Shown here in pieces: positions 25,235 through 27,325 of a stretch of DNA of 64,000 nucleotides. The position numbers were made by a program, and so were the translations under genes. Numbering within the stretch: position 1 is the stretch's first letter; each line of letters starts with the position of its first letter. The DNA comes from a virus. Where the stretch lies: positions 1 to 64,000 of IMG/VR virus record IMGVR_UViG_3300043424_000316; one strand, written 5' to 3'. The notes under the pieces are model-generated. The model was not told the DNA's origin. It searched no databases and saw only the letters and a program-made list of their open reading frames with translations.

Positions 25235-27325
25235 TTACATTTTCAATAGATTTTCAATATGAGGTTTTACCATATCAAATGTTATTGATTTTGTACATTC
25301 AAACTGTCTTTCAGTACCTTTGTGTTCTGGACACCAATTCCAATCTCCTCTATCAAACAGATGTTTAGCAAAACAACCATGACAAACATCTTTGTTTATT
25401 ACACGAATCACATCAGATTTCATTTCTTGCCATGGTTCTGAAAACCCGCTTATCAATATGGTTGGAACGTTTAATGCCCAAGAAAACCAAGTTAATCCAC
25501 TTCCCAATCCAACGAAAAACTTAGCACCTTTCAATATCGAACCAATTTCTTCCAATGATTTGTTATTTATTTTAATAATACCATTTGGTTGTTTATTACC
25601 CATATATCCATCTTCTTCTTTTGAAATCAAATAAACTTCATATCCAAATGATTTTACATAATCAACTAATTCTTGCCAACCAGTTGGATTATTCCAGTAT
25701 TTTGCCTGAGCGGTCGAGTGAACTGCTATACAGATATATGGTTTATCTGTTTCATAAACTGAAAGTTGTTTTATTTTTGGTTTGATTTCCGAATAATCCA
25801 AACCGAGTATATCGGTTATGGTTTTTTGAAGTGGTATTGTATTTGGTGGATTTTCATTTATATCTGTATTAAAGTTTTTGTCATCAGTATAATACCAACC
25901 TATTTTATACGCACAATCAAAATCTAAAAAATTATCTATTTTATCCAAAAAAGTAATTTCAGGATATGATTCACTGAAAAGTGAATTGTGAAAAGAGAAT
26001 ACATATGTTTTACAATTATGTTTTTTTCTAAATTCATCAACATATGGAATCCAAGCAATAGTATCTCCTATCGAATTTGAATCAATGTATATCAATACTT
26101 TTTTATTATTCAAATCAAAATTGTGTTCTATAACATTATTTTTTGAATCAGTTATGACTATTTTCCAGTCTACAAACTTTTTCTTATTTGCCTTTGCCCA
26201 AGAATTTGTTGAAATATCCGCAGAGTATACAACTTCACCCTTTGATTTATCTATAAATTTAACGTTGTATTGTTCTGGAAATTGTCCTGTTATTTTTACC
26301 TTCGGTCCATCTATGAAATTTATATCAAGTATGTTTTCATAATTTAGACGTTTTGTATTTTCATAAATTCTTATTGCAACATTTTTCATATCAGTCTTAG
26401 ATACTGTTTCATATATTTTATCTAATTTAGATACAACATTTTTCCAATCAAAGTTCTGTACACTATCTAATGTTTTTAACTTTTCAGATTCATAGTTTTC
26501 CATAACATATTGGATTTTACTAACAATATCGTCAACATCCCTTTCAATTTGTGTAGTATGCAAATCACCAGAACAGTCTGTTGTAATAACAGGAAGTCCA
26601 GATGAAGCTGCCTCCAATATAGTTAAGGGTGGATGTCCCGCCTCTATGCTAGTCGCATGAACTAATATGGTATGATTTGAGTAGTTATCTACTAATTCAT
26701 CATCCGTCAAATCATATTTTATATCAACATTTGGTCTTAGTAAATTTCTATTCTTATCGAAAAACTGTTTATTGTTATTAGTTGGACCAATTACCGTAAT
26801 TGGTAAATTTAATTTAGTGGCCGCCTCTATTGCATATCTAAATCCTTTTCTATCGAATGTTGGATTTGAAATAACTCCGTTGTTCCCAACACAAATTATT
26901 TTATGTTCGTTTATTTCTTTTTTAATAGTATAGTTGTTTAACGAAACACCATGTTCCAAATAAATCGGAAATCCATCAAAGTATTCTATTAAGAATGGTG
27001 CAGGAACTATTGCAACTTCTGCCAATTTCATTGCCAATAAATTATCAGTGTATAATTGGGTTTCCTTTCCAGCAAGATATACATGATGATCATGACAAGT
27101 GTATATGTACGGTATTCCCTTTTTATACATTTCTAATGCATGATTCCATGCATGAACATGGACAATATCATACACACCGGATTCAATTTCATTGATATAT
27201 GGTATATCTACAATATGTCCTAATTTTTCCAATTCACATTTATATTCCCAAATTATTTTTTCAACTGCACCCCAACTATTAGGCGGAATCGGTAGTAATC
27301 CCAAATTAACTTGTGCTATTCTCAT
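25235..27325 (-). CDS. Fusion: GT4 glycosyltransferase + TibC-like autotransporter O-heptosyltransferase
   Basis: Residues about 1-320 are a GT4 GT-B enzyme (MRIAQVNLGLLPIPPNSWGAVE; SIEAGHPPLTILEAASSGLPVITTD). After a linker, residues about 410-696 match the autotransporter strand-loop-strand heptosyltransferase group (TibC): VHSTAQAKYWNN, GLGSGLTWFSWALNVPTILISGFSEPW, and a Cys cluster VCHGCFAKHLFDRGDWNWCPEHKGTERQFECT. Its cysteines are at about 648, 651, 665 and 677 and could form the iron finger of TibC. TibC-type enzymes transfer heptose to serines of adhesins. I infer that fibre proteins may be the acceptor. ATG at 27325 follows AGGG; GTG at 27334 is too close to it. Confidence 0.82.
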   Translation of the reverse strand: MRIAQVNLGLLPIPPNSWGAVEKIIWEYKCELEKLGHIVDIPYINEIESGVYDIVHVHAWNHALEMYKKGIPYIYTCHDHHVYLAGKETQLYTDNLLAMKLAEVAIVPAPFLIEYFDGFPIYLEHGVSLNNYTIKKEINEHKIICVGNNGVISNPTFDRKGFRYAIEAATKLNLPITVIGPTNNNKQFFDKNRNLLRPNVDIKYDLTDDELVDNYSNHTILVHATSIEAGHPPLTILEAASSGLPVITTDCSGDLHTTQIERDVDDIVSKIQYVMENYESEKLKTLDSVQNFDWKNVVSKLDKIYETVSKTDMKNVAIRIYENTKRLNYENILDINFIDGPKVKITGQFPEQYNVKFIDKSKGEVVYSADISTNSWAKANKKKFVDWKIVITDSKNNVIEHNFDLNNKKVLIYIDSNSIGDTIAWIPYVDEFRKKHNCKTYVFSFHNSLFSESYPEITFLDKIDNFLDFDCAYKIGWYYTDDKNFNTDINENPPNTIPLQKTITDILGLDYSEIKPKIKQLSVYETDKPYICIAVHSTAQAKYWNNPTGWQELVDYVKSFGYEVYLISKEEDGYMGNKQPNGIIKINNKSLEEIGSILKGAKFFVGLGSGLTWFSWALNVPTILISGFSEPWQEMKSDVIRVINKDVCHGCFAKHLFDRGDWNWCPEHKGTERQFECTKSITFDMVKPHIENLLKM

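Follow-up and report, generated by a model that had tools for sequence, protein, structure and literature searches.

A phage GT4-TibC fusion glycosyltransferase with Gly-Thr-Ser repeat tail proteins as candidate acceptors

The usual assumption about phage glycosyltransferases is that their targets are DNA or the host envelope. In bacteria, collagen-like proteins of the BclA type carry O-glycans on repeats of the Gly-x-Thr type, with other enzymes and sugars than those considered here and on the spore surface, not on a virion. The collagen glycosyltransferases of Mimivirus are of eukaryotic type, belong to an unrelated family and act through hydroxylysine linkage. They are a case in which a collagen-like protein of a virus is glycosylated by the virus's own enzymes (PMC9546862, in excerpt), a trait that the locus described here would share. 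TibC and AAH are autotransporter heptosyltransferases of family TIGR04414 (PDB 4rap, 4rb4; PMC4358343, in excerpt) with strand-loop-strand proteins as partners, and the GT4 enzyme SdgB (7vfl, 7vfm) acts on a Ser-Asp repeat peptide, according to the titles of its PDB entries. Here we describe a gene that joins a GT4 and a TibC-type domain in one chain. It lies in a stretch of 64,000 nucleotides (positions 1 to 64,000 of IMG/VR record IMGVR_UViG_3300043424_000316; the window). The full virus record is 77,220 bases long and encodes a portal protein, a terminase, a prohead protease and baseplate proteins. From its sequence and genomic setting, the product is probably a phage protein O-glycosyltransferase that decorates tail proteins rich in Gly-Thr-Ser (GTS) and Gly-Ser-Ser (GSS) repeats, with neighbouring GT4 and FkbM genes building the glycan. 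Among the listed titles and abstract starts of open-access papers, none described a TibC-type enzyme in a phage or glycosylation of GTS repeats.

The gene and its domains are:

25235..27334, complement strand: GT4-TibC fusion glycosyltransferase, 699 residues from the GTG at 27334 or 696 residues from the ATG at 27325
Residues 1-310: GT4; about 315-331: low-confidence linker; about 335-695: TibC-type domain

The stop codon of the upstream gene directly precedes the ATG at 27325. The fusion had been proposed in a sequence-only reading of the window and is confirmed. Residues 1-310 exceed the cut-offs of the Pfam GT4 models PF13692 (34.8 versus 27 bits) and PF00534 (33.0 versus 26.4), and a search with TIGR04414 (hepto_Aah_TibC), suggested in that reading, matched residues 337-694 with 287.8 bits (E 1.1e-85; curated cut-off 200), and with 290 bits in a second scan. 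The C-terminal half also matches TibC itself (4rap, E 1.4e-59); against TIGR02193, a model of lipopolysaccharide (LPS) heptosyltransferases, it reaches only 34.7 bits (cut-off 185.3). PHROGs returned no TibC family for the fusion protein at E <= 0.01. An AlphaFold2 model has a mean predicted local distance difference test score of 89.6 and a predicted template modelling score of 0.54; its linker, at 315-331, is weak, so that the relative placement of the two halves is not readable from it. Residues 333-699 of the model superpose on TibC (4rb4_J) with Z 41.3 and a root-mean-square deviation of 2.1 over 358 aligned residues, and the GT4 half superposes on GT4 enzymes with Z up to 29.4. Chance similarity to TibC was considered and rejected, as the TIGR04414 score, the 4rap match and the structural Z are far above chance.

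The likeness to TibC extends from the fold and the N-terminal beta-barrel region to the active site. The catalytic Asp110 and the pocket residues Thr226 (donor pocket), Lys230 and Trp305 of the bacterial autotransporter heptosyltransferases, whose roles are taken from PMC4358343 (in excerpt), correspond to D424, T541, K545 and W616 in the window, and all four are kept. The catalytic Asp is present in 70/70 unique domains that reach its column (71 unique in all). The motif GLGSGLTWFSWALN occupies residues 609-622 and lies ahead of the cluster C651-x2-C654-x13-C668-x11-C680, which the sequence-only reading had linked to the iron-containing TibC family. The four residues indeed align with Cys 339, 342, 358 and 370 of TibC's iron finger, a likeness of Cys positions alone. 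That they might vary among close phage relatives is answered by their presence in 66/66 unique phage-locus domains reaching the region (96/96 rows); 13 further rows (5 unique) stop short of it, being shorter GT9-like open reading frames (ORFs) or edge fragments. In the GT4 half, Glu231 and Glu241 are invariant and separated by nine residues, where the usual GT4 motif has seven. SdgB shares the fold of this half, with Z 24.9 at 17% identity only. Two complete GT-B folds and a flexible linker make it plausible that one chain could add two sugars in sequence, as had been suggested.

The same reading did not associate the TibC family with phage virions, yet such a domain is nothing unusual in phages. 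Relatives are encoded by 125 viral stretches, from which 80 loci were kept, and GT4-TibC fusions account for 66/109 TibC-type ORFs (84 loci and the window; our own profiles, redundant copies included). The 735-kb phage LR756501 encodes a full fusion with 41.6% identity. Microcystis phage Mel-JY01, the nearest isolate found by terminase (64%, followed by Flavobacterium phages at 55%), has a 1226-residue protein with GT4 and TibC parts. Tandem copies also occur: a second, shorter TibC-type ORF of 270-290 residues lies immediately after the GT4-TibC ORF, or overlaps with it, in loci L031, L037, L039-L042, and likewise in L052, L054, L055, L060 and L066.

For a tree, 118 candidate sequences of at least 300 residues with the Cys motif were reduced to 77 rows by removal of near-copies. 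The equivalents of Asp110, Lys230 and Trp305 are invariant in all 77, including 51/51 phage rows; Cys constancy in this alignment is no evidence, because the rows were preselected for it. Sixteen cellular sequences form one autotransporter-type clade with support 100/100; those scored against TIGR04414 reach about 510-660 bits. All phage rows fall outside it, together with 10 cellular rows (about 260-330 bits where scored; window about 290). On this tree the phage domains are a sister group to the autotransporter enzymes, not phage copies of one, and the label "autotransporter heptosyltransferase" is misleading for sister-group genes. All 10 sister-type cellular rows lie inside the phage diversity, nine of them as one group that comprises sequences of the order Methylococcales and a Polaromonas metagenome-assembled genome (MAG). 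With a midpoint root and cellular rows nested among phage rows, transfer from phage to cell is the likely reading, not a proven one. Locus L089, a contig binned as a Bacteroidetes MAG, encodes a GT4-FkbM protein and a 924-residue TibC protein; it is nested among the phages and may stem from a phage whose contig was binned with the MAG.

The sister-group position is accompanied by changes at the donor site. Arg286 of TibC contacts the adenine of the ADP donor; with this residue replaced, activity was lost or greatly lowered (PMC4358343, in excerpt). The window has I597 instead; Arg occurs at this position in 16/16 autotransporter-type rows, 0/10 sister-type cellular rows and 5/51 phage rows, and the sister-group donor may therefore differ from that of TibC. 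The thumb beta-hairpin is three residues shorter in the window, with a tip (Y577-M578) that is still hydrophobic, and it is shorter still in several phage clades. These features bear on whether the fusion is simply an autotransporter heptosyltransferase carried by a phage, acting on a strand-loop-strand protein with ADP-heptose. A TIGR04414 score over cut-off, four Cys and most active-site residues would fit such an enzyme. Against it stand the separate clade, the loss of Arg286, the shortened thumb and the absence of its target repeat, and we regard it as very improbable. The repeat model TIGR04415 had no match at E <= 10 in the 77-kb window record, which may be a fragment, and exceeded its cut-off in 0/46 related phage contigs (46 of the 49 TibC records described below, three named phages excluded), one of which had a marginal hit below cut-off. 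It was over cut-off in 5/6 autotransporter-type genomes and 0/9 sister-type genomes, and the autotransporter repeat was rejected as main partner. Since neither this acceptor repeat nor Arg286 was found, we do not file the fusion as an autotransporter heptosyltransferase. Of the TibC-family reading, kinship with TibC, the four-Cys cluster, fusion to a GT4 domain and location in a phage genome stand; membership in an autotransporter system is not supported, given the sister clade, the usual absence of Arg286 and linkage to GTS/GSS repeats in place of the autotransporter target repeat. Most likely, judged by these comparisons, the TibC domain would work like the autotransporter enzyme on another repeat.

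Two tail-fibre-like proteins of the window offer such a repeat (Gly-x-x runs counted from 10 triplets upward):

20395..22308, complement strand: tail-fibre-like protein with (GTS/GSS)n collagen-like repeats, candidate acceptor; 228 residues in Gly-x-x runs, 51% Ser/Thr
33306..36953, complement strand: 1215-residue tail-fibre-like protein with (GTS/GSS)n repeats, candidate acceptor; 306 residues in Gly-x-x runs, 45% Ser/Thr

The association recurs in other phages. GTS/GSS-dominated Gly-x-x repeats were found in the fetched flanks of 34/54 phage TibC representatives; the GTS gene lies on the same strand within 200 nt of TibC in 13/54 and at 200-1500 nt in 8 more. For a comparison independent of TibC, pattern scans for GTS and Gly-Pro-x (GPx) repeats gave at least 120 stretches each, and 50 and 49 of 80 + 80 listed contigs were used, picked from the top of the list with a minimum length of 15 kb as the sole other criterion. 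TibC was present in 17/50 contigs with the GTSx4 pattern (16 over cut-off) versus 1/49 GPx controls, and among contigs of at least 50 kb in 12/17 versus 1/18, the two sets being unmatched in habitat and base composition. The GPx pattern is palindromic and thus matches both strands; many of the controls still encode Gly-Pro-x collagen-like proteins. Contig L168, which has both patterns, was placed in the GTS set. The sole TibC-positive control has 38 GTSx3 matches; 47 of the other 48 lack such matches, and the remaining one has just one, to Gly-Thr-Thr. In the reverse direction, GTSx3 was found in 28/49 TibC records versus 2/49 controls (Fisher test, 7e-9), with 965 matches in LR756501. The TibC records in this count are 49 of the 54 phage representatives, without the window's own record; contig G322 is in both the GTSx4-selected set and the TibC record set. 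Such a linkage could account for many phage collagen-like repeats being Gly-Thr-Ser and not Gly-Pro-x.

A corresponding pair exists on bacterial chromosomes. The closest cellular TibC genes adjoin a gene whose product begins with a leader-like segment and contains GTS/GSS repeats. In Methylobacter, the surrounding genes, read by eye, are mfd, queA, miaB and a gene of glycolate-oxidase type, and the locus is therefore not a tail module. TIGR04414 is over cut-off in 15/301 genomes of this order, the Methylococcales (that of G001), 6 of autotransporter type and 9 of sister type. The GTx4 DNA pattern occurs in 25/301: 8/9 sister-type, 0/6 autotransporter-type and 17/286 other genomes. Four of the nine sister-type genomes had suggested the GTS hypothesis; without them the count is 4/5 versus 17/292 (Fisher test, 9e-5), with fewer independent events than rows because the chromosomal cases share ancestry. 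TibC and the repeat gene stand side by side in 8/9 sister-type genomes, on the same strand in 6 and convergent in 2. The ninth, G208, has no GTS repeats; there, the product of the convergent gene next to TibC combines a leader of similar kind with a GSSG/poly-Ser tract:

L485 7493-7912, complement strand: TibC neighbour in G208, 139 residues, leader-like start, GSSG/poly-Ser tract

The chromosomal pairs also bear on a different role, in which the enzyme would act during infection on a protein of the host or on its surface glycans (LPS or capsule), for example to exclude other phages, and the GTS genes would merely share a hypervariable host-recognition module. GT9 enzymes are typically LPS enzymes, which counts for this role. 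Phage glycosyltransferases are, moreover, usually read in this way; PMC7029224 and PMC10202952 (both in excerpt) propose that they modify the O-antigen or the cell wall. We nevertheless find a host-surface role unlikely: the TibC-repeat pairing recurs outside a tail module among housekeeping-type genes, the controls include contigs with other collagen-like tail proteins and no TibC, and the low TIGR02193 score places the domain closest to a protein O-glycosyltransferase, not to an LPS heptosyltransferase.

If the fusion does glycosylate tail proteins, as we favour, it would be a two-domain cytosolic enzyme of a T4-like tailed phage. Its TibC-type domain, with GT-B fold, four-Cys finger (presumably metal-binding, as in TibC), Asp424 and Lys545, would transfer a sugar from a nucleotide donor, perhaps heptose, to Ser or Thr in the long low-complexity GTS/GSS collagen-like repeats before assembly. 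The N-terminal GT4 domain would add a second sugar, and the products of the neighbouring GT4-FkbM, GT2, GT9-like and methyltransferase genes would extend and O-methylate the glycan. The fibre stalks of the virion would thereby become glycoproteins, which may serve stiffening, protease protection, masking or adhesion. The domains could also act in the opposite order, with the TibC domain extending a glycan whose first sugar the GT4 domain has placed on the protein, much as SdgB-type enzymes of family GT4 prime Ser-Asp repeats. In line with this order, the structural search with the GT4 half returned SdgB among its matches, and 51/54 phage representative loci have GT4 matches. It is made quite unlikely by phage loci with TibC and no fused GT4 (e.g. 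L056, L058, L068, L073-L077, L084) and by the chromosomal loci, which except for L089 have TibC without fused GT4 and still beside GTS repeats; the TibC domain alone thus suffices for repeat linkage.

Several observations weigh against repeat glycosylation by the fusion. The GTS genes of the window are about 3 and 6 kb from it, not adjacent. TibC reportedly modifies Ser and not Thr (PMC4358343, in excerpt), and ADP-heptose is a doubtful donor given the loss of Arg286. Among the TibC phage records, 13/49 lack both strict GTSx3 and, near TibC, any Gly-x-x run rich in Ser/Thr, including the 636-kb LR756504 and several of 60-110 kb; conversely, 33/50 GTS contigs lack TibC, most of them fragments but also 5/17 of at least 50 kb. 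Shared location accounts for some of the signal in phages, as TibC and GTS genes both reside in the tail module. The cellular cases are essentially one lineage, and a second bacterial order provides no replication, since a sister-type copy was found in only 1/399 genomes of the order of G003.

Acceptors may also vary. In L042, L046, L054 and L055, a long tail-like ORF without Gly-x-x runs lies shortly downstream, and Thr-Pro repeat ORFs (TPTPTPT) are found near TibC in L034 (near 10596, complement strand) and L070 (near 2838, complement strand) as possible alternative acceptors. Tail proteins of RCC1 type and those with WKKLIVSGS are further conceivable acceptors.

The proposed pairing is specific and testable: it links an enzyme and an acceptor for glycosylation of a virion protein, recurs across many phages and predicts the sugar-bearing residues, and the Methylobacter-type pair is a small bacterial two-gene system for a direct test. 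One tentative extension, for which we hold slightly less than even expectations, is a large, mainly phage-borne subfamily of four-Cys protein O-glycosyltransferases dedicated to GTS/GSS collagen-like repeats. The fibres of many aquatic tailed phages, including the 735-kb phage, would then be densely glycosylated stalks, and methanotrophs would later have taken enzyme and acceptor from phages for an exported protein of their own.

Other genes around the fusion are:

27331..29268, complement strand: GT4 with C-terminal FkbM methyltransferase (TIGR01444, 81.2 bits, cut-off 37.7), directly upstream, overlapping the GTG start of the fusion
22578..25190, complement strand: 870-residue Gly-rich tail protein with DUF5907, between the fusion and the first GTS gene, not GTS-repetitive
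14969..15976, complement strand: 335-residue weak GT9 (heptosyltransferase-type) match, 20.2 bits, below the cut-off of 22
14373..14969, complement strand: methyltransferase (PF13578, 69.8 bits)
13591..14367, complement strand: GT2 glycosyltransferase (PF00535, 35.5 bits)

With this gene set, and with FkbM matches in 28/54 phage representative loci, an oligosaccharide with O-methyl groups is a reasonable expectation. No heptose-synthesis family appeared among the window ORFs scanned with Pfam, a scan that covered part of the ORFs and included no family search aimed at heptose synthesis. In Mel-JY01, a "cytidylyltransferase like protein" scores marginally above the threshold for a generic domain (21.1 versus 21 bits). 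The same phage has a gene annotated as prolyl 4-hydroxylase (PP395634.1 146571-147170) alongside GTS repeats and the GT4-TibC protein. Between the first GTS protein and the glycosyltransferase and methyltransferase genes of the window lies an unusual tail-module neighbour, a 1449-residue RCC1-repeat protein (16036-20385, complement strand; phrog_7220, 508 bits). A 575-residue protein with a laminin-G/concanavalin-like domain (41547-43274, complement strand; PF13385, 65.9 bits) is possibly a carbohydrate-binding tail protein.
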